Shown here piece after piece: positions 18,549-38,543 of a stretch of DNA of 63,618 nt. How positions within the stretch are numbered: position 1 is the stretch's first letter; the number at the start of each line of letters is the position of its first letter. The position numbers were made by a program, and so were the translations under genes. This DNA comes from an uncultured bacterium (GTDB lineage Bacteria; Bacillota; Clostridia; Lachnospirales; Lachnospiraceae): assembly GCA_947063875.1 (NCBI GenBank), contig CAMSTY010000013.1, positions 1 to 63,618 on the forward strand. Reading direction: 5' to 3'. The notes below the pieces were generated by a model, which had not been told where the DNA came from, ran no database searches, and was given only the letters and a program-made list of their open reading frames with translations.

Positions 18549-18610
18549 TTTTTCCTCCATTTTGTGTACGTTTACAGGGTTCATGCCCGCCTTATCGGGT
18601 GCAGGCATCC

Positions 18611-19357
18611 TCACCTGTTCACCGCTAACCTGTTTATTTGCGTCGCCACATATCCGGCTCCATATCCATTGTCGATATTCACTACCGAGATCCCGTTTGC
18701 ACAAGAATTAATCATAGTCAGCAATGCCGAGAGGCCATGGAACGAAGCGCCATATCCTACCGACGTCGGAACAGCAATCACCGGACATTCCACCAGTCCT
18801 GCCACAACAGTCCCAAGTGCGCCCTCCATACCAGCCACCGCCACAATACAATTTGCACCTGCCAGGCGGTCCCTTTTGGAAAGCAGCCGGTGAATGCCCG
18901 CCACCCCCACATCATAGATACGATCCACCCGGCTTCCAAAATATTCTGCTGTCTGCGCCGCCTCTTCCGCTACCGGAATGTCTGCTGTCCCCCCGGTGCA
19001 GACCGCCACATTCCCTACTCTCTCCTTATCTTCCCGTTCTATCTTCAAAATCCGGGAAATCGGATCATAAGCCACCTGCGGAATTTCTTTTTTCACCAGT
19101 TCATACTGCTCTTTGCTGGCTCGGGTTCCCAATACTTCCTTATCCCGTTCATAGATTCGCTGATAGATGTCTACCAGATATTGGTCTGGTTTCCCCTGGC
19201 AGAAAACAGTCTCTCCAAATCCGGTCCTCAGACGTCGGTGAAAGTCCAGTTTCGCATGCCCCAAATCCTCATAAGGCAGATTTTTCAGAATCTCTTCTGC
19301 CTTTTCAATCTCCAGTTTCCCTTCCTTTACCTGCTTCAGCAGTTCTCCTACGTCCAT
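18611..19357 (-). CDS. larB: LarB, pyridinium-3,5-biscarboxylate mononucleotide synthase
   Basis: A protein of 248 residues that carboxylates nicotinic acid adenine dinucleotide and releases AMP, the first step of nickel-pincer cofactor synthesis. The PurE-like domain has CTGGTADIPVAEEAA, VAGMEGALGTVVAGLVECPV and IAVPTSVGYGASFHG. Cys219 in NSCANGISVVNIDNGYGAG matches the catalytic cysteine of the family. The ATG at 19357 has GGAGG seven bases upstream and lies inside the end of the GLUG surface-protein gene, a 53-base overlap, so the two genes share a transcript. No larA (the racemase apoenzyme) is in the window. Confidence 0.93.
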   Translation of the reverse strand: MDVGELLKQVKEGKLEIEKAEEILKNLPYEDLGHAKLDFHRRLRTGFGETVFCQGKPDQYLVDIYQRIYERDKEVLGTRASKEQYELVKKEIPQVAYDPISRILKIEREDKERVGNVAVCTGGTADIPVAEEAAQTAEYFGSRVDRIYDVGVAGIHRLLSKRDRLAGANCIVAVAGMEGALGTVVAGLVECPVIAVPTSVGYGASFHGLSALLTMINSCANGISVVNIDNGYGAGYVATQINRLAVNR

Positions 19358-22355
19358 CCGTATCCCTCCTCTTTCCCATCACCAATGCCAGTACCAGGCA
19401 AACAGCGACTGCAGCAAGAAAAATCTGCCAGACCGGGGTCTTCCTGACCAGTACGAATTCCCCTGACGTTCCCGCTTCAAAAATCAGGTATTCGCCGTCT
19501 CTCTGCCCGGCCGCCCTCTCTGTCACACCATCTTTTACAAACGCCACCCTATCTGCATCCCCAGCCAGCACATGAAGCGTCACGGATGCAGACGCTCCGG
19601 AATCCCCAGTATCCGCGATCTCATAACGGAACACATTTCCTTCCAGTTCCTGTACCAGAAGCCGGGCTTCCGAATGAAATACTCCCTCTGCCAGCAAGAA
19701 CGGTTTGGGATCGTCGGAGTCTGCGATGGTTGTAGTCCATGGCTGATAAACAGCATGAACCTTGTAGTTTTTACGGATATCCGATAAATCCACCGTTTCC
19801 CATTGTTCAAAAAATCCTTCCTTTTTTGGCGCCTGCGGCATATTCTCTTCAGCCAGCGCTTCGCCGTACCGGCAGACAATCTGCTCCACGGCCTGGCCGT
19901 CTGCTAAAAATGTCACGGTCAGGCTCTCAAACTCTTCCGGAATCCCCTCCCTCTGCAGCAACTCCTCATAAGAAATCCCTTCGGCTTCCCCGCGAAAGGT
20001 CACTCCATCCACAGCTCCCAGACCGTCATCCACATAAAGATTGCCACTGGCAACGCCTTCTTCATCCCGGTCACCAGCAATGCTGCCCCTCCACTCGCCG
20101 CTGGCCGTCACTACATTCACCATAGCACAGTTTTCCCGTAAATTTTTGCCCAGGCCGGCAATTCCGCCGGTATAGTCATTTCCGCTGACCTCGCACATCG
20201 TATAGCTGTCCAGAATCAGGGACTGGCTGCTGCCCGCGATTCCGCCGGCATATTTGCCATCCTCCACACGGATATCCCCATAATTCTGATTAGCGGCCAG
20301 CACACCGATTCTTGCCGCCCCTGCAATCCCGCCGGCACAGTCCTGCTGCACCAGGATATCTCCGTCATTTCGGCATCCCCGCACGGCCGCCTGTGCATAA
20401 CGGCTCATATACAGCGATTCCTCACCATAAGTCTCAATATCGGCTTCGGGGTCCAGATCCAGTTCAATCCCTATCGTTCCCACAATCCCGCCGGCCTGAA
20501 AATCGGAACGAATATTTCCTTGATTTGCACACCCGACAATCATACCGTTGCTTAAGTCTGTCGCCGCCTCTGAGACATCCTCAAACAGAGGCTCATCGTC
20601 CTCTACCCGGTTTCGTTCAGACTGCACCCGGTCCATGCCTTCCGAGAGGATATCATGCATTCCTTCCAGCTGATCATCCAACTGCTTCTTCTCTGTACGC
20701 AGCTGGTCTTTGCCGGACTTCAGGTTCTCAGACAGAACATCCAGTTCATCATACAGCTGGTCCAGCTGCCCGGTCAGATCCCCGTCCAGGTCATCCACAT
20801 CATCCACCAGCTGGTCCTTATAATCCCGGGTCAGATCCAAAAACTCCTTTGAAGCCACACGCAGGGAATCCAGGTCATTCTCAAAATCCCTCACTCCGTC
20901 AACGACTCCTTCGACCCGTTTCTCAACCAGAATTTCCGTATCATCGACAATATTCCCGGCACAATCCTGCAATTCCTTCATTACTCCGTAAAGATATTCC
21001 AGTTCTCCCAGGACACCGGCATCTTCATCCGGGATATAATCGTCCGGCAAAACATCTCCCCCTCCGGCGCCGCCGCTTAGCTGTGCCAGAAGTTCCCTGG
21101 CCCGCCGGACATTCCCCTGCACGCGGCTCCCGGCCTGATCTGCCGCACGGCTTCCCATATCAAGTTCCATCTCCGCCAGAGTCTCATCAATCAAGTCCAG
21201 CTGTTTCTTCGCTTTTTCATCATAATCGTCTCTTTTGGCCCGCCGTTCATCCTTTTTCCCCCGGGTAATATCCCGGATAGACTTTACGATCTCATCCACC
21301 CGGTCCAGATTGCCGATCGAGGCGTCTGTCGTAGTATGGATGCTATCCGTCATGGCATCCGTCGTATCTGAAATCTGATCAATCTGGTCTCCCACCTGGT
21401 CAAGGGTGTCTTTGTTATACTGAATCATCAAAAACGGTTCCATTTGCCCTGCAATGCCGCCGACATCCTTGCGCCCCTTTACCTCTCCGGTATTTTCACA
21501 TAAAACCATCAACCCGCTCTGACGCCCTGCGATCCCTCCGATATTATAACCGGTATGATCGTAACCAACCGCCCCGGAATTATCACACTGGCGGATGGTC
21601 CCGGAAGAAAGGCCGGCGATTCCGCCTACATCGTTTACCCTTTCCACCACAATCGTGGTCATAAAGCTTTCCTTATCCACGGAGATACTGTTCTTGCTGT
21701 CAGAAGACTCCTCAAGCCCCTCCGATGCGGCATTAATGCCTCCTTCATTCACCGAATCCCGTATGATCCCCAGGTTCTCTCCGGCAATTCCGCCGACTCT
21801 GCGGTTTCCTGTCAGTTCCGCCTGATTCCGGCAATTTTCAATCACACCGGTCTCCTCATTGATACCGGCAATTCCGCCCAGGTTTTCCAGCGCCTCCCCC
21901 GTTCCAAAAAACGTGCAGTTACGGATTGTCCCTCTGTTGGCGCCGGCAATCCCGCCGATTCTTTTCCGGCTTCCTTCTGGTTTTAGCTCTCCGCCCACAT
22001 TCAGATTCTGTATGATCGCTTCCTCCTCCAGATAACGGAAAAGGCCCAGGCCGGAACCCGGCTGTCGGATAGAGATTCCGCTGATCGTGTGATTATTGCC
22101 CTCAAAAGTGCCGCAAAACACCGGAATCGGGACGAATTGCCTGCCGCTCAGATCAAGATCTGCCTCCAGAACCACCGTTTTGCCCTCGGAATAGGTTTCC
22201 GAAATGCACAGTCTGGCCAGATCCAGCCATTCCTCTGCCGTGCGAATCGTAATGACAGACTCTTCCGCCTTCGTCTCCAAAGGAAGTACGGGCACAGACG
22301 CCGCCAGAACTGCTGCCATCAAAAGCGCTGCCGCTTTCCTGATCTTTTTCATCAT
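19305..22355 (-). CDS. Giant surface protein with GLUG repeats and a central coiled coil
   Basis: A protein of 1016 residues. Layout: signal peptide (1-30); beta-rich GLUG-type repeats, about 50-305, with recurring GGIAG motifs; a long charged helical stretch, about 315-620, including an acidic/basic KKQLDDQLEGMHDILSEG-like coiled coil; a second GLUG block, about 625-790; a short InlB-like module (VTFLADGQAVEQIVCRYGEA onward); and a C-terminal membrane helix (FLAAVAVCLVLALVMG) with a basic tail. No LPXTG motif is seen. The ATG at 22355 shares a base with the MMPL gene stop (TGATG) and follows AGGAGG. Coupling to an MMPL transporter suggests a partner or adaptor role outside the membrane (inference). 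Confidence 0.82.
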   Translation of the reverse strand: MMKKIRKAAALLMAAVLAASVPVLPLETKAEESVITIRTAEEWLDLARLCISETYSEGKTVVLEADLDLSGRQFVPIPVFCGTFEGNNHTISGISIRQPGSGLGLFRYLEEEAIIQNLNVGGELKPEGSRKRIGGIAGANRGTIRNCTFFGTGEALENLGGIAGINEETGVIENCRNQAELTGNRRVGGIAGENLGIIRDSVNEGGINAASEGLEESSDSKNSISVDKESFMTTIVVERVNDVGGIAGLSSGTIRQCDNSGAVGYDHTGYNIGGIAGRQSGLMVLCENTGEVKGRKDVGGIAGQMEPFLMIQYNKDTLDQVGDQIDQISDTTDAMTDSIHTTTDASIGNLDRVDEIVKSIRDITRGKKDERRAKRDDYDEKAKKQLDLIDETLAEMELDMGSRAADQAGSRVQGNVRRARELLAQLSGGAGGGDVLPDDYIPDEDAGVLGELEYLYGVMKELQDCAGNIVDDTEILVEKRVEGVVDGVRDFENDLDSLRVASKEFLDLTRDYKDQLVDDVDDLDGDLTGQLDQLYDELDVLSENLKSGKDQLRTEKKQLDDQLEGMHDILSEGMDRVQSERNRVEDDEPLFEDVSEAATDLSNGMIVGCANQGNIRSDFQAGGIVGTIGIELDLDPEADIETYGEESLYMSRYAQAAVRGCRNDGDILVQQDCAGGIAGAARIGVLAANQNYGDIRVEDGKYAGGIAGSSQSLILDSYTMCEVSGNDYTGGIAGLGKNLRENCAMVNVVTASGEWRGSIAGDRDEEGVASGNLYVDDGLGAVDGVTFRGEAEGISYEELLQREGIPEEFESLTVTFLADGQAVEQIVCRYGEALAEENMPQAPKKEGFFEQWETVDLSDIRKNYKVHAVYQPWTTTIADSDDPKPFLLAEGVFHSEARLLVQELEGNVFRYEIADTGDSGASASVTLHVLAGDADRVAFVKDGVTERAAGQRDGEYLIFEAGTSGEFVLVRKTPVWQIFLAAVAVCLVLALVMGKRRDTDGRRRTAEAGKGRETGD

Positions 22356-24724
22356 CAGCACCCTCCTTTCTCACTGGTCCTGTCCTTTTTTCCGTCGTTT
22401 TCATCATATTTTACTGCTCCGCGGTTGAATTCCGTCCGGTCAATGACGCCGTCAAACACCAGAAGAATCTGCGGCAGCACAGTCATTACGAGAATGATGG
22501 AAACCAGAGTTCCCGCTCCCAATGCCTTTCCCAGGGAAGCAATAATTGCATTGGAAGTCAGCCTTCCCACGGCAAAACCGGCACAGGTAAGAATCGTACC
22601 CGAGGTGGCTACTGTCGGAAATGCTTGGTTCAGGGCCTCCACCACCACCTGCTTTCTGTCTGATATCTGGCTTCTAAGATCCATATACCGGCTGGTAATC
22701 ACGATCGCATAGTCAATGGTCGCTCCCATCTGGATTGCGCTGACGATCAGATAGCTCAGAAAGAACATGGTTCCTCCCTTCAGAGGCGGTATGGAAAAAT
22801 TAATCCAGATACTGCTCTGAATCGTAAGCACCAGCATAATCGGAAGTCCTGCCGACTGAAACGTAAACAATAGAATGATTCCTACAAACAACGCCGTCAG
22901 CACGCTGATCTTTACATTATCCGTGCGAAAAGACTTGCTCAGGTCATAGTCGCTGGTAGAATCACCCACCACATAGACCTCATCATAATAGGTGCTGGCA
23001 ATGTCCCGTATCTGATCAATGACCGCAAACGTTTCCTCCCCTTCGATCGGCCCCGTCATGGTAAATACAATCCGGGAATATTCTTCTCCCTCCAGCTGCT
23101 GCCTGGCGTCGCGGAGGGCCTCATGCAAATCATCCACATCCTCGGACAAGTCGTCATCCAGATCAATGGCGCCTTTCTCCTTCTGATCATAAATAAAGTC
23201 TACCATATCAATAATCGGAATCCGGTACTCATCGAGATTTTTCATAAATGCGCCATACTGTTCCCGGTCAATTGCATAAAACTGATACAAAAGACGCACC
23301 AAATCCAGATCCACATCCGCCACTTCTGCAAATTCCCGCGGATTTAGTTCATTGACCAGAATATATTTTCCGTCGTCATCCACTTCGATGTTGCTGAGGC
23401 CCAGCACCGTATCCACCCGGTCCACCTGTTCCAATCCCCTGATAATTTGCGCCTCTTTCTGATAATCTCCCTTTGGCACCACCAGCGCCATGGTATTTGT
23501 CACCTCAAAAGTCTTCTCAATCCGTACCTTGGAAGTCATGAATTCATTCATCTTATCCGCTTCGATGGAACTGTGGTCATACACATATTCGCACTGATTG
23601 GACAAAACGCACCCTGCAGCCATTGCCACCACAAAAACCGGCAATACCACATACCGGGTTCTCACCACCAGACGGCCCCACCCCCGGATCGACGGCACAA
23701 AGCTGCGATGTACCGTCTTCTCAATCCATTTCGATGACATCACGATCATGGCAGGCATCAGGAAAAATACCGTAATCAGGCTGAAAATAATCGCTTTCGT
23801 CAAAACGCGGCCCAGATCCATTCCGATTCCAAACTGCATCAGCATCAACGCCACCATACCGGATACGGTAGTAAGGCTGCTGGAGGAAATCTCCGGAATT
23901 GCCTTGCTGAGCGCCACGGTTACCGCCTCAATCGTCTCTTTCGTCTCATGCTCCTCCATAAACCGGTGAAACAAAATAATCGCATAGTCAATCGAGAGCG
24001 CCAGCTGCAGCACGGCCGCCACCGCGTTCGTCACAAAAGAAATCTCCCCGAACCAGAAGTTCGTTCCTGTGTTCAGCACAATCGCCACGATAAAAGTCAT
24101 CATGAAAATGACGATTTCCATATATGTCCCGGAAGTAAAAAGCAGCACCAGCAAAATAATGGCTGCCGCCACTGCCAGAATCCCCTTCATATCCTCTTTC
24201 AAGGCGGCGCTGTCGTCTTTATCAACCGTAGTATAAAAGTACGTCTGATAATCTTTCAAATGCTCCCTCACATTGGCGATTGCCCTCTGCGACAGTTCCG
24301 TGTCCTCTTCCTCCTCGAAGGTCAGCGTATAAAGAGCACAGGCATCCTTGTAATAATCCGTAATCTCATCATCTGCATAAGTATCTTCCGCGTCCTCCCA
24401 GTCAAAAAAGCTGACGGAAGAAATCCCGCGAATCTCCTCCAGCGCCTTTGCCTCCTGCAACGCCTTTTCGTATGTAATATTGGTTACCAGAATCTTTGCC
24501 GACCCAAAAGTCGTAAACTGCTCTTCCATAATATCCAGACCCTGTCTGGTCTCTGTGGAATCCGGCAGATAATCTGTCAGTTCCGTATTCACCTTTGCCC
24601 GATTGAGAGTAGTCAGACAATAAATACACGCAATCGCAAACAGCACGACAAATGCGTTCCGCTTATTTACCACAAAAGCCGCAAGCTGCATCATAAAATT
24701 ATTGCGATCAATCTTATGTTCCAT
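22355..24724 (-). CDS. MMPL/RND-family transporter
   Basis: A membrane protein of 789 residues with the two-fold RND layout: a helix, a large extracytoplasmic loop, five helices, then the same again. Family sequences include VTNAVAAVLQLALSIDYAII and the matching IVSAIQMGATIDYAIVITSR, with the buried Asp-Tyr pair used for proton coupling. MMPL proteins export lipids or other hydrophobic molecules; the substrate here is unknown. The frame is open for 85 codons further upstream, but MEHKIDRNNF at 24724 is where the protein-like sequence begins; an AAGGAG site is present though 14 bases away. It is the first gene of the run ending with the lar genes. Confidence 0.88.
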   Translation of the reverse strand: MEHKIDRNNFMMQLAAFVVNKRNAFVVLFAIACIYCLTTLNRAKVNTELTDYLPDSTETRQGLDIMEEQFTTFGSAKILVTNITYEKALQEAKALEEIRGISSVSFFDWEDAEDTYADDEITDYYKDACALYTLTFEEEEDTELSQRAIANVREHLKDYQTYFYTTVDKDDSAALKEDMKGILAVAAAIILLVLLFTSGTYMEIVIFMMTFIVAIVLNTGTNFWFGEISFVTNAVAAVLQLALSIDYAIILFHRFMEEHETKETIEAVTVALSKAIPEISSSSLTTVSGMVALMLMQFGIGMDLGRVLTKAIIFSLITVFFLMPAMIVMSSKWIEKTVHRSFVPSIRGWGRLVVRTRYVVLPVFVVAMAAGCVLSNQCEYVYDHSSIEADKMNEFMTSKVRIEKTFEVTNTMALVVPKGDYQKEAQIIRGLEQVDRVDTVLGLSNIEVDDDGKYILVNELNPREFAEVADVDLDLVRLLYQFYAIDREQYGAFMKNLDEYRIPIIDMVDFIYDQKEKGAIDLDDDLSEDVDDLHEALRDARQQLEGEEYSRIVFTMTGPIEGEETFAVIDQIRDIASTYYDEVYVVGDSTSDYDLSKSFRTDNVKISVLTALFVGIILLFTFQSAGLPIMLVLTIQSSIWINFSIPPLKGGTMFFLSYLIVSAIQMGATIDYAIVITSRYMDLRSQISDRKQVVVEALNQAFPTVATSGTILTCAGFAVGRLTSNAIIASLGKALGAGTLVSIILVMTVLPQILLVFDGVIDRTEFNRGAVKYDENDGKKDRTSEKGGC

Positions 24725-24775
24725 ATTGCTTGTTTCTGCTCCTTTCCCTCCGCTTCTTCCATCCGGATATGCTAT

Positions 24776-24804
24776 ATCATACTTCCCAATCCCAAAATTA
24801 TCAA
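24776..24804 (-). promoter_or_regulatory. Promoter of the MMPL-GLUG-lar run
   Basis: TTGATA (24804-24799) and TATGAT (24781-24776) on the minus strand are 17 bases apart, about 50 bases before the MMPL start. The rest of the 311-base gap up to the DUF1292 stop holds two small hairpins and no gene. Confidence 0.6.
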
Positions 24805-25035
24805 TCCTTATTTTATGCCGGGAATCCGGCTTTTTCTCACAAAATAAAACACCAGAAAGATAACAGGTATTCCTTGGGAATATCAGCCACCTTCCTGGTA
24901 CCGCTCCGAAACCTTTCCCTGCCTTCCCTGAATGGCTGCATATCCTCTCATCCACGGAAGGAAACTGCTCCTGACGCACACTGCAGCCACTTTCTGATCA
25001 CCCCGAATCCTTCAGGATTCAACGGGCAAAACACA

Positions 25036-29352: not shown

Positions 29353-30642
29353 CTAAGCCGCCGCACCATAAATCAGATTCGGCAAGAACAGCACCATCTT
29401 CGGGAAGAAGACACACAAAGCTACTGTAATCAGAATAGCCACAAACAAAGGAACCGAATACCGCGTCGTCTCCTCCACCGAACATCCCATAATATTCGAG
29501 CAGGTGTAAAGAGCCACCCCCACCGGCGGAGTCGAACAACCCATGGTCACGATGGTCATCATAATAATGCCAAAATGCACCGGATCAATCCCATATTGGG
29601 TGATAATCGGTATCAAAATCGGGGTTACAATCAAAGTAATGACCGTAGTCTCCATAAACATGCCAAACGCCGTAAGCATAACTAAAATCAGCAAAAGCAG
29701 AACATACTTATTGCTGGTCAGTCCCACCAGCATAGTGGTCAGCGTCTTCGGCAGCTGGTCAAACACGACGCCGTAGCTGAAGATTCCGGAAAAAGCCAGA
29801 ATCATGGTAATCACAGACAAATCTTTCACGCTGTCAACCACACACTCTTTGAATTTCTCAAGAGTCAGTTCCTTATAAATAAAAGCGCCCACGACCAAAG
29901 CATAAAATACGGCAAAAGCGCCGGACTCCGAGGGAGTCATCACGCCGAAACGGATCAGTACAATCAGAAGGATCGGGAATAAAAGCGCCCAGATACTCTC
30001 AATACACGCCTTCAGAATCACACCTGGCGGCGAGGGTTTGTCATGGTCCGGCTTATAGCCATGGTGCCTGGCTGACCAAGACGTGGCAACCATCATCAGA
30101 ATACACATAATAATACCAGGAAGAAAACCAGCCACAAACAGGCGGCCGATGGATACCTCTCCCACAGTACCATAGAGAATCAATCCCATGGAAGGCGGAA
30201 TGGTGGCCACAATCAGGCCGGACAGGCAGTTTACCGCGGCCGCCCACCCGGGAGCATAACCCCTCTTTGTCATCTCCGGCCCCAGTATCCGGCATTCCAT
30301 GGCCGCGTCTGCCACCGCAGAACCGGACACGCCGCCCATCAGGGTCGAAAGCACTACCGACACCTGGCCAATAGAGCCATACATATGGCCGGTCATAACA
30401 TTGGCCAGCTTCACCAACCGGGAGGTAATACCGGTCTTATTCATCAGATTGCCCGCAAAAATAAACAGCGGAATAGCCAGCATAGTAAAGGACTGGGTGG
30501 TCGAGAGCGACTTCTGAACCAGAATGGTCCAGGGAATCTCCGGTCTCATCAGGAAAAAAGCAAATCCCGACACCGCAATGGCAAATGCCACTGGCATCCC
30601 CAGAAACAAAAGCACCAGAAATAATCCTACCGCGCTTAACAT
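29353..30642 (-). CDS. dctM: TRAP transporter large permease (DctM)
   Basis: A membrane protein of 429 residues with about twelve helices, the translocation subunit of a tripartite ATP-independent transporter driven by Na+ or H+. It starts MLSAVGLFLVLLFLGMPVAF. Family segments include LAIPLFIFAGNLMNKTGIT, GGVSGSAVADAAMECRILGP and ATIPPSMGLILYG. Its ATG shares bases with the DctQ stop (TAATG), a classic coupling. Substrates of the family are acids such as C4-dicarboxylates, sialic acid or sugar acids; the LacI regulator points to a sugar-derived acid (inference). Confidence 0.93.
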   Translation of the reverse strand: MLSAVGLFLVLLFLGMPVAFAIAVSGFAFFLMRPEIPWTILVQKSLSTTQSFTMLAIPLFIFAGNLMNKTGITSRLVKLANVMTGHMYGSIGQVSVVLSTLMGGVSGSAVADAAMECRILGPEMTKRGYAPGWAAAVNCLSGLIVATIPPSMGLILYGTVGEVSIGRLFVAGFLPGIIMCILMMVATSWSARHHGYKPDHDKPSPPGVILKACIESIWALLFPILLIVLIRFGVMTPSESGAFAVFYALVVGAFIYKELTLEKFKECVVDSVKDLSVITMILAFSGIFSYGVVFDQLPKTLTTMLVGLTSNKYVLLLLILVMLTAFGMFMETTVITLIVTPILIPIITQYGIDPVHFGIIMMTIVTMGCSTPPVGVALYTCSNIMGCSVEETTRYSVPLFVAILITVALCVFFPKMVLFLPNLIYGAAA

Positions 30643-31124
30643 TATGCGTCCCCCCCTTCTTTGGAAGGCTTCTTAATATCGCCTATAGTTTTGCCTATGG
30701 CACTGAAAAACATCAGCAGAGACCCCACCGGAACCGCCAGTGTGCACCAGGCATAACTCATCTTCATGGTGTTGAAGGTCCTGTTCCAGCTTTGCGACAC
30801 CAGCATAAACCCATAGACAATCAAAATCAGCAAAAACAACAGCATCATGATATCGAAAACAATCGTCAGAAGCTTCTGAACCACCTTGGGAAACTTATTC
30901 ACCAGCATATCGATCCGAATCAGGCCGCCCCCCTTGATAATAATATCCGAACCGATAAAAGTCAGCCACGCAAATGCCAGGAGGGACACGTCCTGCGCCC
31001 AGTTCACCGGCATTCCGACGGTTCTGGCCACCGCGGACCAGAACACCAGAACAGCAATCATGCACAGCATGATACCGGCGAGAATTTCTTCAATCTTTAA
31101 TATGGAATCTGAAATTTTTTTCAT
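30642..31124 (-). CDS. dctQ: TRAP transporter small permease (DctQ)
   Basis: A membrane protein of 160 residues with four helices. The pattern VARTVGMPVNWAQDVSLLAFAWLTFIG is split across helix 2 and is typical of DctQ. It forms the membrane complex with DctM, with which it overlaps, and follows the binding-protein gene by 49 bases. The binding partner is the DctP at 31174-32235 rather than the orphan SBP downstream of the kinase. Confidence 0.9.
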   Translation of the reverse strand: MKKISDSILKIEEILAGIMLCMIAVLVFWSAVARTVGMPVNWAQDVSLLAFAWLTFIGSDIIIKGGGLIRIDMLVNKFPKVVQKLLTIVFDIMMLLFLLILIVYGFMLVSQSWNRTFNTMKMSYAWCTLAVPVGSLLMFFSAIGKTIGDIKKPSKEGGDA

Positions 31125-31173
31125 ATGAAAGCTTCCTTTCCATCTCGAAAATCCCGAAGCAAAACATCCATTA

Positions 31174-32235
31174 TCAGTTGGTTTTTCCGATCTCCTTATA
31201 CAGCTGCTCTCTCAGTTCAGAGTAACCCAGCTTATCGTATACCGGGTCCACCAGGGCCTTGAACGGCTCCACATCCGGCTCCACAATGGTCATGCCGGCT
31301 TCCACCATCTTTTTCTCCGCATCCTCCACCTCGCTCATCACATCCGCAGCAGTGGTCTTGCCGATCTCAACGGAGGTTTCCACCAGCAAGGTCTGCAGAT
31401 CTTCCGGCAGGCTGTCAAACCAGCTCTGTCCGCATACCAGGCCCTGCATCAGCTGGAAATGACCGGTCTTGGACTGATACTCACAAACCTCATAGATGCG
31501 GGAAGGATAGCTGGATGTATTCTGAACCTCACAACCCTCCAGAGCCTTGGACTGAATTCCGTTGTAAACCTCTCCCCAGGACATGGAAATCGGAGTTGCG
31601 CCCATGGCCTGAATGGTCTCCGTACATACCTCCTGGCCGATGGTACGGATACGCAGTCCCTTTAAATCTTCCGGGGCATTGATGGGCTTATTGGTCATAA
31701 ACTGCCGGGGTCCGTCATAGAAGGTGAAAGACAAAATCTTGATTCCGTGGTCATTGGACAGGGTATCGCACCAGCCGTTAAAGGTATCTGTCTGAGTAAC
31801 CTGATAACACTCATCATAATCATCCGCAAAATATCCCATCATCAAAATGGAAAAATCCTTCACATACTGTCCCATGCGGGAAGCATCCGTGTTCACCGCC
31901 ACATTGGCTCCCTGGATCGCCTGCTCCAGCACATCCTCATCGCTTCCCAGCTGGCCTGCCGGAAATACGGATACCTTCAGCCTCCCGCCGGATTTCTCAT
32001 TCAATTCATCTGCCAGTTTCTGATAGTTTCTGGTAATCAACGCCTGTTCCGTCTGAGAGGTGGAAATCTTCAATTCATATACCTTATCTGTGTCCGCACT
32101 TGCGCCGGCTCCTCCCTCGGCCTTTGCCTCCGGCGCCGCCGGCTGGGCATTCCCCATCCCCGGCATGCCGCTGCATGCGCTCATAGTAGCCATCATCGCT
32201 GCCAATACACCTGCCACCAGTATTCTTTTTTTCAT
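31174..32235 (-). CDS. dctP: TRAP transporter substrate-binding lipoprotein (DctP)
   Basis: A protein of 353 residues. A signal peptide ends in a lipobox-like MSAC (Cys about residue 20), so it is probably a lipoprotein. The mature part shows DctP motifs: YELKISTSQTEQALITRNYQ, FPAGQLGSDEDVLEQAIQG, LKGLRIRTIGQEV (the arginine that binds the substrate carboxylate) and MSWGEVYNGIQSKALEGCEV. Of two in-frame ATGs the second (32235) is preferred because AAGGGG lies seven bases before it. It is the first gene of the TRAP operon, behind a promoter carrying LacI-type operators. Confidence 0.93.
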   Translation of the reverse strand: MKKRILVAGVLAAMMATMSACSGMPGMGNAQPAAPEAKAEGGAGASADTDKVYELKISTSQTEQALITRNYQKLADELNEKSGGRLKVSVFPAGQLGSDEDVLEQAIQGANVAVNTDASRMGQYVKDFSILMMGYFADDYDECYQVTQTDTFNGWCDTLSNDHGIKILSFTFYDGPRQFMTNKPINAPEDLKGLRIRTIGQEVCTETIQAMGATPISMSWGEVYNGIQSKALEGCEVQNTSSYPSRIYEVCEYQSKTGHFQLMQGLVCGQSWFDSLPEDLQTLLVETSVEIGKTTAADVMSEVEDAEKKMVEAGMTIVEPDVEPFKALVDPVYDKLGYSELREQLYKEIGKTN

Positions 32236-32282
32236 GTTCATTCCCCTTTTCTTAGTAATTGTGCCCAGCGATTCCCAATCGC

Positions 32283-32292
32283 TAAACGTTTA
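32283..32292. promoter_or_regulatory. LacI-type operator O1 of the TRAP operon
   Basis: TAAACGTTTA is a perfect 10-bp palindrome with the central CG typical of LacI/GalR operators. It lies just downstream of the dctP transcription start, 31 bp centre to centre (three helical turns) from O2. Confidence 0.65.
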
Positions 32293-32309
32293 TATGTCTA
32301 ACAATTATA

Positions 32310-32338
32310 AATATAAACGATTACACAAAAGAAAGCAA
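32310..32338 (-). promoter_or_regulatory. dctP promoter with overlapping operator O2
   Basis: TTGCTT (32338-32333) and TATATT (32315-32310) on the minus strand have 17-base spacing. The operator-like TAAACGATTA (32314-32323) covers the -10 and part of the spacer, so a bound repressor would block polymerase. Confidence 0.65.
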
Positions 32339-32398: not shown

Positions 32399-32427
32399 TT
32401 GACATCAGCCTTTTAAGCTGATAAAAT
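32399..32427 (+). promoter_or_regulatory. Promoter of the LacI regulator, with an inverted repeat in the spacer
   Basis: TTGACA (32399-32404) and TAAAAT (32422-32427) have 17-base spacing. The spacer holds ATCAGC and GCTGAT as a 6-bp inverted repeat around seven bases, a possible second kind of operator. Confidence 0.7.
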
Positions 32428-32531: not shown

Positions 32532-33554
32532 ATGGTGACAATTAAGGATGTTGCAAAAAAATGCGGCTTTTCCGTGTGCACCGTTTCCCGCGCCCTCTCC
32601 GGGAAAGGCTACTTAAAAGAGGAAACCAGACAAAAGATCATGGAAGCTGTGGCGGAACTGAATTACCGTCCCAACACACTGGCCGTCAACTTAAAAACCG
32701 GACGCCGTCAGACCCTGGCCCTGATTCTGCCTTCTCTGACCAACATTTTCTATGCAAAGCTGGAACAGTACATGGAAGCCTTCGCCTCGGAGAAAGGTTA
32801 TCTTCTCTACCTGAGCAACACCGAGTACAGCCTGGAAAAAGAAAAACAGATTATCGAGAACCTGGCCGGCATGGATATTGTCGGCGTGATTATCTTTACC
32901 GCCTCCGGCGAACACGAGCACATCAAAAAGCTTTCCGGCTTCGGAATCCCTTATGTTTATATGAACCGCTATTTTGAAGATGACCTGGAGCACTGCCTGC
33001 GGTTAGACAACAAAAAAGCCGCCTTCGAAGCGGTCAATTATATGATTCAGCTTGGCCACCGGAATATCGGCGGCATTTTCCAGAGTTTTGCCAACAGTTC
33101 CTATCAGGAACGTTATGAAGGCATGATGGAAGCATTGGCCGCCCATGGCCTGACCTGCCATCCGGACAATCTTCTGCTTGATGTCAATCCGGAAGACATG
33201 GGTACCACCCCGGCCCGGATTCTGCAAATGCTTCAGCAGCCGGAGCGGCCCATGGCGATCTTTGCCTGCAACGATATGATGGCTTTCAATGTGTACCGGG
33301 CCGCCTATATTTTGGGACTGCAGATTCCGGAACACCTGTCCGTATTTGGCTATGATAACTGTATTATGGCCAATTTTGTGACTCCGCCCCTGTCCACGGT
33401 CTCCGCTCCTGCCAAGCAGCTGTCCTCTATTGCCGTGGATTTTATTGACCACCATATCCAGACCGGAGACATCAAAAAGCTGCCGGTTCTCAACGCCTCC
33501 CTGGTTATCCGCAACTCCGTAAAGAATCTGAAGGACTATAAGGAAGGGCAATAG
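32532..33554 (+). CDS. LacI-family transcriptional regulator
   Basis: A protein of 340 residues. The N-terminal HTH and hinge read MVTIKDVAKKCGFSVCTVSR and NYRPNTLAVNLKTGR. The periplasmic-binding-protein-like sensor follows (LALILPSLTNIFYAKL, GIPYVYMNRYF, GHRNIGGIFQ, AIFACNDMMAFNVYRAA, SVFGYDN). It is divergent from the TRAP operon, and TAAACG-type palindromes lie in that operon's promoter, so it is the likely repressor. A similar site precedes the histidine-kinase operon. The ligand is unknown. AAGGAG lies nine bases before the ATG. Confidence 0.92.
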   Translation: MVTIKDVAKKCGFSVCTVSRALSGKGYLKEETRQKIMEAVAELNYRPNTLAVNLKTGRRQTLALILPSLTNIFYAKLEQYMEAFASEKGYLLYLSNTEYSLEKEKQIIENLAGMDIVGVIIFTASGEHEHIKKLSGFGIPYVYMNRYFEDDLEHCLRLDNKKAAFEAVNYMIQLGHRNIGGIFQSFANSSYQERYEGMMEALAAHGLTCHPDNLLLDVNPEDMGTTPARILQMLQQPERPMAIFACNDMMAFNVYRAAYILGLQIPEHLSVFGYDNCIMANFVTPPLSTVSAPAKQLSSIAVDFIDHHIQTGDIKKLPVLNASLVIRNSVKNLKDYKEGQ

Positions 33555-33571: not shown

Positions 33572-34678
33572 TTATTGCTCCATATCCTTTCCAGGATATA
33601 TCAACGCCAGTTCCACGGTCCCCTCCGGCACAATTCGATACGCTCCTGCCGCTGCCGCAATCAAAAAGCTGTCGCCCGCCCGAAGGCACAGCCTCTCATC
33701 CGGCCTCCCGGAAAATCCCTCTTCCAATTCCATCCTGCAGCTGCCGCTGCACACCACCCCAAGAGTAAACCTTTCATTATGGGAAACCACCGCCTCCTCC
33801 CACACCTGCAAAGTCTCCACAAAAAAGCAGGGAGTGAGTCCTTCCCCCACCAGGCGCCGCCGTTCCAAAGCACCTGTCCGTTCCAGCACCTGAGGCGTAA
33901 TCCGGCACTTTTCTATAATCTGCTCCCGGGAATACTCCGTATAGTCAAACACATCCAGACAGAACTCCAGTCCCTTCCCCATAAACCGGGCTTCCTCAGG
34001 GACCACCACACCCTCCCGCTCAAACTCACAGCGCACCACCAGATCCGACGGTTCCATGATCTCCAGCATAGTAATCCCCTCGCCGATGGCATGGGGCATC
34101 CCCCCAGGTATGTACCACACCTCGCCAGGTTTTACCGGTATCTTCTCAAAGCACCCATCCATCTCCTCCCGGTTCTGGGTCTTTATTATCTGTCCCCACT
34201 TCTCCCGCCCCGGAGTATGCTGAAATCCCAGCCGGATATAAGGCTCAATCCCCTGCCGGACACCCAGAATATAATAACATTCCAGCTTTCCGTAGGGTTT
34301 TCCCATCACCTGGTTGGCAAACCGGGTCGACGGATGGGCCTGCACATGAAGACGCATGGCAGAATCCAGGATTTTCAGGAGGAAGCTAAGCTGCCAGGTT
34401 CCATCCTTATGAATGCTGTCCCCCAGATAAAAGCTTTGTTCTTCCTCCACCACCTCCCGCAGGCTGCGTATACCCGCCTCGGTTTCCACCATGGCCAGTC
34501 CCTCCTGCTTCACCGGCTCCATTCCCGGATTCACCGCCTCCACCATGGAGCCAATCCATTCCTCCGGCTGGTCATTGTCCACGCATACCTCTTCCCCATG
34601 AAGCCGGTCAATCCCGGCTCCCCCCAGATAGTTGCGGCGGACACGGTTTCTCGGCAGCTTCATCAATCCCTTTCTCAT
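33572..34678 (-). CDS. manA: Class I mannose-6-phosphate isomerase-like protein
   Basis: A protein of 368 residues, zinc-dependent, of the family that interconverts mannose-6-phosphate and fructose-6-phosphate. Likely zinc ligands are the Gln and His in LHVQAHPSTRFANQ, the Glu in GKLECYYIL and the His in GGMPHAIGEGITML. The N terminus (RNYLGGAGIDRLHG, PEEWIGSMVEA) is of the longer clostridial type, so another sugar phosphate is possible. The start is uncertain: 34678 has AAGGTGAGG nearby, but an ATG five codons later and a longer frame also exist. It is the last gene of the kinase/regulator/SBP operon, which suggests the sensed compound is an aldose or a sugar acid derived from one. Confidence 0.78.
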   Translation of the reverse strand: MRKGLMKLPRNRVRRNYLGGAGIDRLHGEEVCVDNDQPEEWIGSMVEAVNPGMEPVKQEGLAMVETEAGIRSLREVVEEEQSFYLGDSIHKDGTWQLSFLLKILDSAMRLHVQAHPSTRFANQVMGKPYGKLECYYILGVRQGIEPYIRLGFQHTPGREKWGQIIKTQNREEMDGCFEKIPVKPGEVWYIPGGMPHAIGEGITMLEIMEPSDLVVRCEFEREGVVVPEEARFMGKGLEFCLDVFDYTEYSREQIIEKCRITPQVLERTGALERRRLVGEGLTPCFFVETLQVWEEAVVSHNERFTLGVVCSGSCRMELEEGFSGRPDERLCLRAGDSFLIAAAAGAYRIVPEGTVELALIYPGKDMEQ

Positions 34679-34746: not shown

Positions 34747-35799
34747 TCAACGCATCCCATGAATCTCCTCAATCAAATCCAGAAACTGAATGCCATACTT
34801 TTTATACACCGGTTCCATGGCGTCGCTCCATGCCTCCGGGTCCTCCGGCTCCAGGATCTCTACCCCTGCCCTCTCCAACGCCCGATACGCCTGATCATCC
34901 GCCTTCTCGATCTCTACCCGGTTATAATCCTGAGTCAGGCGGGCCGCTTCCAGAAGCGCCTGCTGATCCTCCTCCGACAGCGTATTCCAGGTCATTTCAC
35001 TGACCAGAATCACTCCCGGGGCATAGGTATGCCCATCCTTTACATAATAAGGAGCCACCTCATAAAACTTATTATAGTAATAGCTAAGGGGAGGGTTCTC
35101 CGCCCCGTCCACGCTTCCCGACTGAAGGGCCGTATACAGTTCCACATAAGCAATGGGAACTGCGTCTGCCCCCAGCGCCGCCACCGTGTCCTCCATCATT
35201 TCCGACAGCTGTATCCGGATCTTCAAATTCCTCATATCCTCAACCCGGGTAATTGGCCGCTCCCTGGCAAAAAAATTCCTCGCCCCTTCATCCAGATAGG
35301 CAATCCCCTTAATGCCACCGGATTTCACCTGGATATCGTCAAGGATCTCCTGCCCCAGCCGGCTCTCGCACACCTTCCAGAAATGCTCCCGGTCCCGAAA
35401 TATGTAAGGCAGGGCCAGCACCGAAACCATAGGCTCGCCAAATTCCGCTAAAGAAGCACAGTTTCCCCGGTACAAATCCAGAGACCCGATCTGCATGGCC
35501 CGATAACACTGGGCATCGTCCCCCATCTGTCCCGACGGATAAATCTCCACCGCAATCCGCCCCTCGCTGAGCCGTTCCACCTGCTCTGCAAAGAACTTTG
35601 CGGATTCTGTCATAATATGCCCTTCCGGATTCACCTCTCCATAACAAAGCACCAGTTCCGGTTCTCCTGCCCGGATCTCCTTTTGGGAAGCCTCCATGTT
35701 GCCCCAGCCTGCCAGATACCCTCCTGCCAGCAGCACAACTATTCCCAGCAGCGCAATATGCAAAAGATTTCCTGCCGCGTTCCCCTTTTCTTCTTTCAT
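34747..35799 (-). CDS. Orphan membrane-anchored TRAP-type substrate-binding protein
   Basis: A protein of 350 residues with the DctP fold: LVLCYGEVNPEGHIMTESAK, YPSGQMGDDAQCYRAM, DMRNLKIRIQLSE (carboxylate-binding arginine) and VELYTALQSGSVDGAENPP. Instead of a lipobox it has an uncleaved-looking N-terminal helix, HIALLGIVVLLAGGYLAGW (about residues 14-32). No TRAP permease is next to it. Its ATG overlaps the stop of the response-regulator gene (ATGA), so it is made together with the two-component system. The likely job is to present a ligand to the kinase as an extracytoplasmic co-sensor (inference). Confidence 0.85.
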   Translation of the reverse strand: MKEEKGNAAGNLLHIALLGIVVLLAGGYLAGWGNMEASQKEIRAGEPELVLCYGEVNPEGHIMTESAKFFAEQVERLSEGRIAVEIYPSGQMGDDAQCYRAMQIGSLDLYRGNCASLAEFGEPMVSVLALPYIFRDREHFWKVCESRLGQEILDDIQVKSGGIKGIAYLDEGARNFFARERPITRVEDMRNLKIRIQLSEMMEDTVAALGADAVPIAYVELYTALQSGSVDGAENPPLSYYYNKFYEVAPYYVKDGHTYAPGVILVSEMTWNTLSEEDQQALLEAARLTQDYNRVEIEKADDQAYRALERAGVEILEPEDPEAWSDAMEPVYKKYGIQFLDLIEEIHGMR

Positions 35800-37019
35800 T
35801 CCCTGCAAACCTCAATTTCAGAAAAACATTCCATATGATACTTCAGATTATCTCCGTTAAAATTCAGCTGGCCCAGTTTTTCAAACAGGGCGGCGGCCGT
35901 AGAAGTTTTTACCCGGATTCCCGGCATCTGATTCACTTCCCGGAGAATCGTCATCAGGCTCCGCCCAAAATTCAGCTTTACGGACATGTCCTGATACATC
36001 AGACGCCGCTCCAGTTCCTCCACCAATTCGATCATTTTTCGCTGACAGGCGTCCCGGTTTCCCTCTGTCAGCAGACGGCTGACGTTTTCCTCCAGACCGC
36101 ATATTTTTTTCATGCTTTTAGTCATTTCCACAAATTCCCTGCCGGTCTCCCCTCCCGAATATCCGCTGATATAAGAGGCCGCCTCCTCATAAGCGTCCGG
36201 CAGCATTTCCACGCTGTCGCAGGTTCCGCTGACCCCACAGGCAACCGGGATCTGGCTCTCTCTGGCCAAATAATCTCTGGCTCTGCGAATACAGCCGGTC
36301 AGTTCCGTAAACGCATCCTCCTGATCCGAGTACAGGCAGACAGCCATCTGATCCATCCAGATACTGTTGATCCCCCTTACTTCCGGCAGACAGAAATAGT
36401 TTTTAAGGACCTCCTGGGAAAATGTCCCCATGGAAATCAGCGCCGGACTGGAGATCAGCGCCACCTTCATCCACCCGTTCCCAATCCCCCACAAATCGAG
36501 CTGCGTTTTCAACCCCTCCACCGGCTTTCTTCTAAAAAACAGGTTCCAGAGAAAATCCTTCTCCAAATCCTGGCAGAAATCAAAAGACGTTTCCCGGTCC
36601 GCCCCATGAGAATATGACAAAAGCGCCAGCGAATCCTCCCGCTCCCTCGCCCTTGCAATCACCTTGTCCAGAGTCTCCCGCAATTCCGAATCCAGATAGG
36701 GTTTTAACAGATAATCCGTCACCCCCAGCTTCATCGCCTGCTTGGCATAGGAAAAATCACTGTAGGCAGATATAATAATCATCTGAATGTCCGGATACCG
36801 TTTCCGAATCTCCTGTGCCGCCGCCAACCCGTCCATCCGAGGCATCTTAACATCCAGCAGCACCATATGAGGCTTGCATTCCTGCAGATTTTCCATCAAG
36901 TCCATTCCGTCTACTGCCTGATAAACAATCTCAAGAAGATTCGGATAGCTTTCATGGATGATCTTTTCCAAATATTCCCGTTCATATTGTTCGTCATCCG
37001 CCAACATCAGCCGCAACAT
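35796..37019 (-). CDS. YesN-like response regulator lacking the AraC DNA-binding domain
   Basis: A protein of 407 residues. The receiver domain (1-120) is complete: Asp8-Asp9, phospho-acceptor Asp56 in VLLDVKMPRMDG, Ser84 and Lys106. Residues about 130-300 match the middle region of YesN-type regulators, including a GGDEF_2-like VACGVSGTCDSVEMLPDAYEEAA stretch seen in pieces. A helical segment follows (about 310-400). The usual C-terminal AraC double HTH is absent: the frame ends at EIEVCRE exactly where that domain should begin, and the next gene starts there. No HTH is encoded in other frames. GGAGG lies eight bases before the ATG at 37019. Confidence 0.85.
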   Translation of the reverse strand: MLRLMLADDEQYEREYLEKIIHESYPNLLEIVYQAVDGMDLMENLQECKPHMVLLDVKMPRMDGLAAAQEIRKRYPDIQMIIISAYSDFSYAKQAMKLGVTDYLLKPYLDSELRETLDKVIARAREREDSLALLSYSHGADRETSFDFCQDLEKDFLWNLFFRRKPVEGLKTQLDLWGIGNGWMKVALISSPALISMGTFSQEVLKNYFCLPEVRGINSIWMDQMAVCLYSDQEDAFTELTGCIRRARDYLARESQIPVACGVSGTCDSVEMLPDAYEEAASYISGYSGGETGREFVEMTKSMKKICGLEENVSRLLTEGNRDACQRKMIELVEELERRLMYQDMSVKLNFGRSLMTILREVNQMPGIRVKTSTAAALFEKLGQLNFNGDNLKYHMECFSEIEVCRE

Positions 37020-38454
37020 GTTTCTGTCCTCCTTTTTCAGCCAGAGTTGTTTTTTCTTCATTTTTATAAAGCTTCAGGATAATTCTTGTAATTCCTGCAG
37101 CACGTTCAATCTGAAGCACATCCTTTTTCCCATAATAAAATTCCAAACGCTCCCTCACATTATTCAGGCCGATCGACGTCCGGGGAACCGGCAGCCTTTC
37201 CGGTGAATCCTTCTTCTCCTGCTTGTCAGGAAATCCCACCCCATTGTCCGCCACCACAATCTCCATATAATCCGGCTTCTCCGTAACCAGAATCTCCACC
37301 TTGCCGCCGCTTGTCCGGTCCTTCAGGCCATGCTGAATGCTGTTCTCTACCAGGGGCTGAATCGTCAGAGGAGGGATCATAAAGGAGACATCCCGAAAGG
37401 ACTTCCTCACATCCAGGCGGAACCGGATGCGGCCCTTTAAGTGCAGCTTCTGAATATACAAATATGCCTGCAGAAGTTCAATCTCATCATCCAGAGGAAT
37501 CACCGCCGTCTTGATTTCAATACTGCTGCGCAAAATTTTTGAGATCGATTTTACCAGCTGAATGGCTATGTCCCCCTCCCCCAGCTGTATGCTGCGGATC
37601 ACTAGGCTTAAGGTATTAAACAGGAAATGCGGATTCATCTGCATCTGAAGTTCCCGGATCTTCGCTTCTGCCAGACGTTCTTTCATCTGATAGGTCTCAT
37701 TCAGTTCCGTGATCATATTACAGATCGTATGCTTCATCTGGTCAAACGTCCCCGAAACCTGGTTCAGTTCTTCAAATGCCGTCTCCTCAATGTCTTCCAC
37801 CTCAAAATTCTTATTGGTGATCTCCTTAGCCGCACAGGTAATCCTTCCTATAAATTTTAAAACGACATGGTTCATCCGGTAGTTGACAAACCCGGTATAC
37901 ATACAGCCGGCCACCAGCACAAGATTCATCAGGAAATTAACCATATTCAGCTGGCGGCTATGATCCTCAAAAGATTTATTCAGATACTCCAGATATTGGC
38001 TCACAAGCTGGTTCAGGCACCGCTCAATCTCCAGTTCCACCTCATCAAGGCTGCTCATATCCCCTGGACTGTACAATCCCGCAGGCTGAATATAAGATTG
38101 AGCCAGCTGCTGATGATGTTTCACCACCTGGCAGACAATCCGGTACATCATCTTACACTGCCGGTCATACCGCATCTTTTCCGACAGCGCGGAAAGCCCG
38201 TTATTTAAACGGCTGCAATTCTCATAATATTTCTCAAGATCCACATATTCACGGCTTTTGCAGTATAATTTAAAACTGGTTTTACGGCCATTGTTCATCA
38301 CCGAAACTTCGTTGACCTGGCGGTAATCCTGCAGCAGCCGGTGGTATCTGCCGGAAGCGACCGTGTTAACCAGAATATTGGCCACAATAAAAACACAGGT
38401 AAATATAATCAGCTGGAGATGACTGTGCCGTATCTCATTTTGGATTGACTTCAT
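36994..38454 (-). CDS. YesM-type sensor histidine kinase
   Basis: A protein of 486 residues. Transmembrane helices at about 13-33 and 171-192 enclose a helical extracytoplasmic domain of about 135 residues. A HAMP-like linker (200-260) follows, then the HisK_6 domain with the phospho-acceptor His276 in MQMNPHFLFNTLS and an ATPase domain (PLVENSIQHGLK, ADNGVGFPD, GIGLNNVRERL-like SIGLNNVRERLEFYYG). It overlaps the response-regulator gene by 26 bases. The sensor domain is not a known small-molecule-binding fold by eye, which fits ligand detection through the SBP encoded in the same operon. Confidence 0.92.
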   Translation of the reverse strand: MKSIQNEIRHSHLQLIIFTCVFIVANILVNTVASGRYHRLLQDYRQVNEVSVMNNGRKTSFKLYCKSREYVDLEKYYENCSRLNNGLSALSEKMRYDRQCKMMYRIVCQVVKHHQQLAQSYIQPAGLYSPGDMSSLDEVELEIERCLNQLVSQYLEYLNKSFEDHSRQLNMVNFLMNLVLVAGCMYTGFVNYRMNHVVLKFIGRITCAAKEITNKNFEVEDIEETAFEELNQVSGTFDQMKHTICNMITELNETYQMKERLAEAKIRELQMQMNPHFLFNTLSLVIRSIQLGEGDIAIQLVKSISKILRSSIEIKTAVIPLDDEIELLQAYLYIQKLHLKGRIRFRLDVRKSFRDVSFMIPPLTIQPLVENSIQHGLKDRTSGGKVEILVTEKPDYMEIVVADNGVGFPDKQEKKDSPERLPVPRTSIGLNNVRERLEFYYGKKDVLQIERAAGITRIILKLYKNEEKTTLAEKGGQKHVAADVGG

Positions 38455-38491: not shown

Positions 38492-38543
38492 ATTTTACAC
38501 TACTTTTGCAGATTTTGAAAGCACATATATATACGTTTACACA
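38492..38543 (-). promoter_or_regulatory. Promoter and LacI-like site of the kinase operon
   Basis: TTTCAA (38520-38515) and TAAAAT (38497-38492) on the minus strand have 17-base spacing. About 15 bases upstream of the -35 is TGTGTAAACGTATA (38543-38530), with the same TAAACG core as the TRAP operators. A position upstream of -35 would suit an activator or a looping repressor, or a CcpA-like site. Confidence 0.5.

Follow-up and report, generated by a model that had tools for sequence, protein, structure and literature searches.

A TRAP-associated sensor operon with an HTH-less YesN-like response regulator and a LacI-family gene as candidate DNA end in a Lachnospiraceae clade

We analysed a 63,618-nucleotide stretch of DNA from an uncultured bacterium of the Lachnospiraceae (assembly GCA_947063875.1, contig CAMSTY010000013.1, positions 1 to 63,618; hereafter the window). 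It carries a sensor operon encoding a histidine kinase (HK), a YesN-like response regulator (RR), a second DctP-family solute-binding protein (SBP2) and a ManA-like protein, and it lies close to the operon of a tripartite ATP-independent periplasmic (TRAP) transporter. At the sequence level, comparison with related genomes revealed a clade-wide loss of the helix-turn-helix (HTH) domain from the RR, intact phosphorelay residues, mostly synonymous divergence, co-occurrence with a LacI-family gene and conserved operator-like sites. The new element is the LacI gene, present in all seven HTH-less genomes, together with operator-like sites in the promoter region of the TRAP operon and before the kinase gene. 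These results suggest that the control of an uptake system was rewired throughout this clade during evolution, the DNA end of the circuit having probably been handed to LacI. As a tentative overall reading, held with some reserve, we propose a sensor of the TRAP system assisted by a solute-binding protein (SBP), in which LacI would be the DNA end and the RR would act by protein contact, the partner being left open.

Architecture of the sensor operon

The operon comprises the following genes:

36994..38454, minus strand: sensor histidine kinase (HK) of the LytS/YesM type (Pfam His_kinase and HATPase_c)
35796..37019, minus strand: HTH-less YesN-like response regulator (RR), 407 aa (Pfam, alignments)
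34747..35799, minus strand: second DctP-family solute-binding protein (SBP2) with a Trp-bearing hydrophobic anchor, proposed co-receptor (Pfam E = 1.5e-80, alignments)
33572..34678, minus strand: ManA-like protein, encoded at the end of the sensor operon (start codon chosen by comparing relatives)

Pfam and the gene calls bore out the kinase, the HTH-less regulator and the DctP-type SBP that the initial annotation had placed at 34747-38454. The open frames of the RR (35796-37061, minus strand) and SBP2 (34747-35808, minus strand) have their likely ATG starts at 37019 and 35799, respectively. For the RR, Pfam returned Response_reg (E = 1.2e-23) and a sub-threshold GGDEF_2 match, with no HTH at E <= 1. 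The HK is laid out as a first transmembrane segment, an extracellular part of ~140 residues (limits set by eye), a second transmembrane segment, a linker, His_kinase and HATPase_c, and its H-, N- and G-box motifs are retained across eight aligned proteins (by eye). As described before, the first two gene junctions overlap, by 26 nt between HK and RR and by 4 nt (ATGA) between RR and SBP2, where the next gene starts at the RR stop. The HK, RR and SBP2 genes form a single run in all seven HTH-less genomes, judged from gene order only. The gene closing the operon, previously named manA, encodes a class I mannose-6-phosphate isomerase-like protein that scored under the NCBIfam cut-off and is found in the cluster in 7/7 genomes. 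Among the matches listed by sequence searches of the PDB, all were generic, to DctP proteins or receivers, and none pointed to a ligand.

Clade-wide absence of the DNA-binding domain

Matches to the RR at E <= 1e-25 were found in 13 of 24 genomes of the genus. Seven of the 24, the window's own included, carry an end-to-end orthologue, and the other six proteins are 66-84% identical to that of the window; two loci (L021 and L022) were treated as the same loci as in genomes G318 and G316 and counted once. The RR of genome G312 is 37% identical to the window's and has an open frame of 558 codons, and in the remaining five matching genomes ~130 to 320 residues were covered at 28-44% identity. All seven orthologues stop at the same domain boundary, with the next gene beginning at the stop or shortly after, and Pfam detected no HTH in any of them; the truncation is therefore not an assembly error. 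Truncations are often artefacts, and an assembly frameshift or a decaying RR gene had to be considered, but this explanation is refuted by the RR end shared among seven assemblies, the absence of an HTH from each and the low omega values given below, leaving it a probability of practically nil.

Beyond the genus set, none of 299 family genomes except the window's own reached 1e-40 for the RR (up to six candidates scored per genome), while a profile of eight RR proteins led to four more relatives among 392 genomes of the order (up to four candidates scored per genome); both counts cover relatives that passed the respective thresholds. An AraC-type HTH is present in all five distant relatives (G312, G465, G713, G557 and G539), which span three families; the domain was found by Pfam in four of them and in G713 by BLAST only. 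In the alignment, the RR of the window ends ~13 residues ahead of a conserved VVR-AK-YI helix, the first AraC helix of the relatives, and 34 residues ahead of the Pfam HTH_18 match in G312. The statement in the initial annotation that the regulator stops exactly where the AraC domain should begin was thus correct as to the missing domain and nearly so as to the position. The close genomes keep the same truncated RR beside the same SBP, and neither a frameshift nor an HTH in all homologues, the two findings named beforehand as speaking against the idea, was encountered.

The simplest reading is that the lineage leading to the seven genomes lost its HTH once. The lost domain could not be traced elsewhere: among the matches listed, the best match to the G312 HTH was 38% in the genome of the window and 46% in the seven genomes, whereas the G312 HTH shares 60-68% with the G713 and G465 orthologues and 47% with that of G539. 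No separate gene carrying the relocated HTH was found among these matches.

Conservation of the truncated regulator

The receiver described in the initial annotation is intact. Its phospho-acceptor is Asp56, counted from the ATG at 37019, and D8, D9, D56, S84 and K106 are unchanged in 8/8 RR proteins. Median omega values were 0.062 (receiver), 0.151 (middle domain) and 0.094 (tail); these dN/dS values are rough, with synonymous sites near saturation (median pS 0.64-0.79) and finite pairs only (7 to 19 of 21), and the value for DctP1, the transport DctP, in G302 was taken from the copy adjoining ManA. Mean pairwise identity was 0.665 in the middle domain (~255 residues) and 0.713 in the 27-residue tail. 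The tail contains the motif LNFNGDNLKYH, identical in 6/7 HTH-less RRs and reading LNLDGDNLKYH in G309; a motif of this type is lacking in the aligned HTH-bearing relatives.

These data bear on the possibility that the HTH-less RR is a phosphate sink or kinase buffer, draining this or another kinase with no positive output, so that LacI alone would control the operons. The receiver is indeed intact and lacks a DNA-binding output, and phosphate sinks are a described role (PMC4214558). For such a role, however, a receiver alone would do, whereas the RR is no receiver-only protein and keeps its conserved middle domain and tail; nor was a second regulator for the HK found in the cluster among the genes compared. 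We consider a sink unlikely, and a positive function of the RR by protein contact rather probable.

A LacI-family gene and operator-like palindromes

Between the sensor genes and the TRAP operon lies a LacI-family gene. The features of this region are:

32532..33554, plus strand: LacI-family regulator; runs towards the sensor operon (convergent) and away from the TRAP operon (divergent) (PF00356 and PF13377)
32399..32427, plus strand: sigma-70-like LacI promoter, TTGACA-17-TAAAAT (2 matches in the region vs 1.5 in shuffles)
31174..32241, minus strand: transport DctP (DctP1), lipobox by eye (PF03480)
30642..31124, minus strand: DctQ (PF04290)
29353..30642, minus strand: DctM (PF06808)
32280..32295, no strand: operator-like palindrome CGCTAAACGTTTATAT in the TRAP promoter region (21.4 bits, window left out of the matrix)
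32311..32326, no strand: operator-like palindrome ATATAAACGATTACAC in the TRAP promoter region (20.7 bits, window left out of the matrix)
38527..38542, no strand: third operator-like site ATATATACGTTTACAC, before the kinase gene (18.2 bits, window left out of the matrix)

Orthologues of this LacI protein, 74-85% identical, occur in the other six HTH-less genomes, so the gene is present in all seven. At E <= 1e-70, the 24 genomes yielded just one more match, a homologue in G310 (47%) with the same recognition helix, SVCTVSR. No LacI match was found in the stretches around the five HTH-bearing modules, where contig ends shorten one flank in G465 and G713, and none at E <= 1e-70 across the genome of G312, the only HTH-bearing relative searched genome-wide. 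LacI is the sole DNA-binding protein encoded by the genes that proved to be conserved in the cluster.

Two CG-centred palindromes are conserved in the aligned LacI-DctP1 intergenic regions of the seven genomes. Into the operator matrix went 13 sites chosen by their core pattern in these regions (11 without the window's two), and because of this origin only the kinase-gene site, the G310 sites and the second G302 site are independent of it. The three listed sites are the top three of the window, the next best reaching 9.9 bits. In 50 first-order Markov sequences of the same length and composition, a mean of 0.12 sites reached at least 16 bits and 0.06 at least 18 bits; a first null of 10 Markov sequences with the full matrix gave means of 3.5 sites of at least 10 bits and 1.1 of at least 12. 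By these nulls, the window does not contain more sites than chance would give, but the scores of its sites are above chance. Across 533,938 nt of other loci, three places reached 16 bits and one of these 18. The kinase-gene site scored 18.4-19.9 bits in five of the seven genomes. In G302, a 23.1-bit site lies upstream of the second TRAP copy, the one adjoining ManA. In the LacI cluster of G310, a CoA-transferase gene contains one site of 21.2 bits, and the gap between it and the gene that follows has two more (22.8 and 17.9 bits).

Judged by eye, a -35-like and a -10-like hexamer flank one of the TRAP sites, and the second follows a short way downstream; these positions would fit repression. 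The site before the kinase gene is upstream of a -35-like hexamer, the promoter-like hexamers there spanning 38519-38492 on the minus strand (7 matches vs 5.1 in shuffles).

The palindromes could alternatively be catabolite-responsive (cre) sites of the global regulator CcpA instead of local LacI operators. We take the motif to resemble the CG-centred cre type, CcpA and the local regulator both belong to the LacI family, and the G310 sites are not at the TRAP operon of that genome. On the other hand, only three sites exceed 10 bits in the window and only five exact cores occur in the 3.49-Mb genome; the G312 locus, which has the same genes, holds none above 11.1 bits and the other HTH-bearing loci (G465, G713, G557 and G539) none above 15.5 (none above 15.1 in G312, G465, G713 and G557); and the sites recur in the LacI cluster of G310. 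A CcpA origin therefore seems quite improbable, and LacI is likely to be the protein that binds these predicted sites.

The TRAP operon as probable target and SBP2 as probable co-receptor

SBP2 had been described as an orphan with no permease partner. This proved wrong, as a complete DctPQM operon (29353-32241) is encoded 2.5 kb from the sensor genes and belongs to the cluster in all seven HTH-less genomes. The order HK-RR-SBP2-ManA, convergent LacI and divergent DctPQM is retained in 6/7; in G302 (L037:2420-3564 and L091) the TRAP operon is present in two copies, the second between ManA and LacI. Four of the five HTH-bearing relatives (G312, G465, G713 and G557) show the order HK-RR(HTH)-DctP-DctQ-DctM-SBP2, and in G539 a lone SBP2-type protein (60%) stands ahead of DctQ and DctM. 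Because the HTH-bearing relatives group these genes, SBP2 is taken as an old companion of the sensor, most likely its co-receptor, and the TRAP operon as its probable target. The proposal of a three-part sensor whose output is not DNA binding by the RR itself is upheld in this form, the second DctP being likely sensory.

The anchor of SBP2 had been noted to lack a lipobox, and a Trp (TGG) indeed stands behind the hydrophobic stretch, where most relatives have a Cys. This Trp is shared by the window, G316 and G318 (3/8), which form one clade (support 93), while the lipobox Cys (TGC or TGT) is found in G302, G301, G309, G315 and G312 (5/8), that of G315 being a few residues off in the alignment. 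The SBP2 N-termini of G465, G713, G557 and G539 likewise show a lipobox-type Cys (by eye). Given the Cys in the relatives and the Trp in one clade, SBP2 has probably changed from a lipoprotein to a protein on an uncleaved signal anchor.

Elsewhere in the family, too, TRAP genes have a kinase-regulator pair and a second DctP as neighbours, namely in 3 of 20 further family neighbourhoods (L098, L111 and L112) and in 1 of 8 further neighbourhoods (L137). The first of these (L098; G000:C40:10000-28000) is another TRAP sensor module in the genome of the window, with DctP-DctQ-DctM, a further DctP, a kinase of 516 aa and a short regulator of 276 aa made up of a receiver and an AraC HTH without the long middle domain; similar gene sets occur in G033 (L112) and G285 (L111). 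In G310 (L109), a TRAP operon with a single DctP is accompanied by a kinase and a regulator, and in G465 (L152:9420-16000) two modules adjoin, the second with a kinase, a 542-aa HTH regulator and two DctPs.

The LacI homologue of G310 stands near a TRAP operon (DctP 63%, DctM 83%) without a sensor match. In this cluster (L134:7106-16904), genes for a CoA-transferase, an enoyl-CoA hydratase-like protein and a flavoprotein (named by eye) accompany TRAP and LacI, and these neighbours hint at a short organic acid as substrate.

Proposed mechanism and alternatives

According to our proposal, the RR would have lost its AraC domain once, in the clade ancestor, with a LacI-family repressor taking over the DNA end. 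A ligand would bind membrane-anchored SBP2, which in its loaded form may engage the extracellular helices of the HK; the HK would then phosphorylate D56 of the HTH-less RR. LacI is predicted to occupy three operators, a pair at the TRAP promoter region and a single one ahead of the kinase gene, a role suggested by its co-occurrence with HTH-less RRs and by the sites at both operons. Phospho-RR would work through protein contact, for which LacI is the likeliest partner within the cluster. Of the three outputs considered in the initial annotation (a phosphate sink, a protein-protein output or an HTH protein encoded elsewhere), a separate HTH partner is thus favoured, but as a LacI-type repressor next door and not as an unknown protein elsewhere.

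That LacI really is the contact partner of the RR is doubtful as a claim on its own. It is somewhat unlikely that phospho-RR serves as a protein coeffector of the neighbouring LacI, with the phosphorelay reaching DNA only through a LacI-family protein; on that account the HTH would have been lost because the DNA address had passed to LacI. A contact between RR and LacI would mean that an external signal (DctP and kinase) and an internal one (the LacI effector) meet on one repressor.

The RR might instead contact something other than LacI, such as the kinase, the transporter, RNA polymerase or an unlinked protein, with LacI and the sensor acting in parallel. G310 has LacI with TRAP genes but no sensor; yet LacI is the one DNA-binding protein conserved in the cluster, and a matching site precedes the sensor operon in 5/7 genomes. 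We regard such a partner as rather unlikely. The truncated RR could also be the heterodimer partner of a full-length YesN regulator encoded elsewhere, since several long receiver proteins and AraC-type HTH proteins (~540-590 codons) are encoded in the genome. The other genome matches to the RR, however, extend hardly beyond the receiver (at most to residue 182 of 421), and because they stay near the receiver no paralogue sharing the middle domain was seen, making heterodimerization highly improbable.

Several observations weigh against LacI as the DNA end of an SBP-assisted sensor. The seven HTH-less genomes form one lineage, so the contrast of seven with five counts as about one event, not twelve. 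G310 combines TRAP and LacI genes without the sensor, hence LacI need not depend on the RR, and no site was found before the TRAP operon of that genome. The kinase-gene site is missing in 2/7 genomes (best 9.4 bits in G302 and 6.1 bits in G315). Two of the five exact cores lie at this locus, and a reversed control also occurs five times in the genome; as core and control are equally frequent, the core pattern alone proves nothing, and score, position and conservation are what count. The promoter scanner gave no minus-strand promoter at the TRAP sites, whose repressor-like position therefore rests on inspection by eye. The presumed likeness of the motif to cre sites belongs here too, as do the poor AlphaFold2 models of RR and HK from three-row alignments (pLDDT, predicted local distance difference test, 37 and 39). 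Finally, sugars are described as the usual ligands of LacI proteins (PMC4052901).

The locus presents a two-component system whose loss of the DNA-binding output, with the rest kept, can be traced by comparison with HTH-bearing relatives, and it offers a LacI protein as candidate for the takeover. If the RR does contact LacI, a phosphorelay would directly control a one-component repressor. Among the open-licence papers listed, considered by title and the start of the abstract, none dealt with such a link, with an HTH-less YesN regulator or with a LacI protein that accompanies a response regulator and TRAP genes in the family.

Other genes of the window

At 17307-19357, a nickel-insertion protein gene (PF01969) adjoins an AIRC-domain gene, a pair which we take to be LarC- and LarB-like lactate-racemase cofactor genes. 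The region 19305-24979 encodes an 874-aa MMPL-type transporter and, next to it, a protein of 1018 aa that matches GLUG weakly.

Comparison with known systems

The gene set is that of an SBP-assisted three-component system, with an RR that lacks, in 7/7 genomes, the DNA-binding domain usual for such systems; the YesN/AraC-type receiver with its Asp is present and the C-terminal AraC HTH absent. DctP, DctQ and DctM are encoded together, and the LacI protein combines an HTH with a periplasmic-binding-protein-like domain and has palindromes in the neighbouring promoter region. By analogy, the module fits SBP-assisted sensing as far as phosphorylation of the RR, from where the usual output is lacking. 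Close likenesses are the modules of G312, G465, G713 and G557, in which HK, YesN-like RR, DctPQM and a second DctP stand in one gene run; unlike the window, these have RRs of 515-548 aa with an AraC HTH and a lipobox Cys in SBP2.

In XylFII-LytS systems, the kinase is contacted at its extracellular domain by a docking SBP, an arrangement to which we liken the proposed contact between SBP2 and HK; these systems differ from the window in sensing xylose, in belonging to an ATP-binding cassette (ABC) system and in their HTH-bearing YesN. In the DctB-DctS-DctR system, DctB is a DctP-family protein, DctS a PAS-type kinase and DctR a DNA-binding regulator. The XylFII-LytS systems are named in PMC10384115, which establishes SBP-assisted sensing for CuaDSR of Ruminiclostridium cellulolyticum, a YesN-type system that uses one SBP for sensing and another for transport. 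Like the window, CuaD-CuaS-CuaR pairs a YesN/AraC-type two-component system with a dedicated second SBP beside a transporter that has its own; unlike it, CuaD is an ABC sugar SBP and a lipoprotein, and CuaR (538 aa) keeps the AraC HTH and induces the transporter operon (PMC10384115). DctB is the co-receptor of the kinase DctS in Bacillus subtilis, and thus, as proposed here, a co-receptor for a sensor kinase controlling an organic-acid transporter, although that transporter is the DctA carrier (PMC6978683). BctC offers a further case, a binding protein of the tripartite tricarboxylate transporter (TTT) type signalling to a two-component system (PMC5812351).

The proposed placing of a LacI-family repressor under the control of a phosphoprotein resembles CcpA with HPr-Ser46-P. 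HPr is a protein of the phosphotransferase system and not a response regulator, which sets it apart from the RR of the window. In CcpA, nevertheless, a LacI-family protein is steered by a phosphoprotein, as described in PMC4591507 and PMC4052901.

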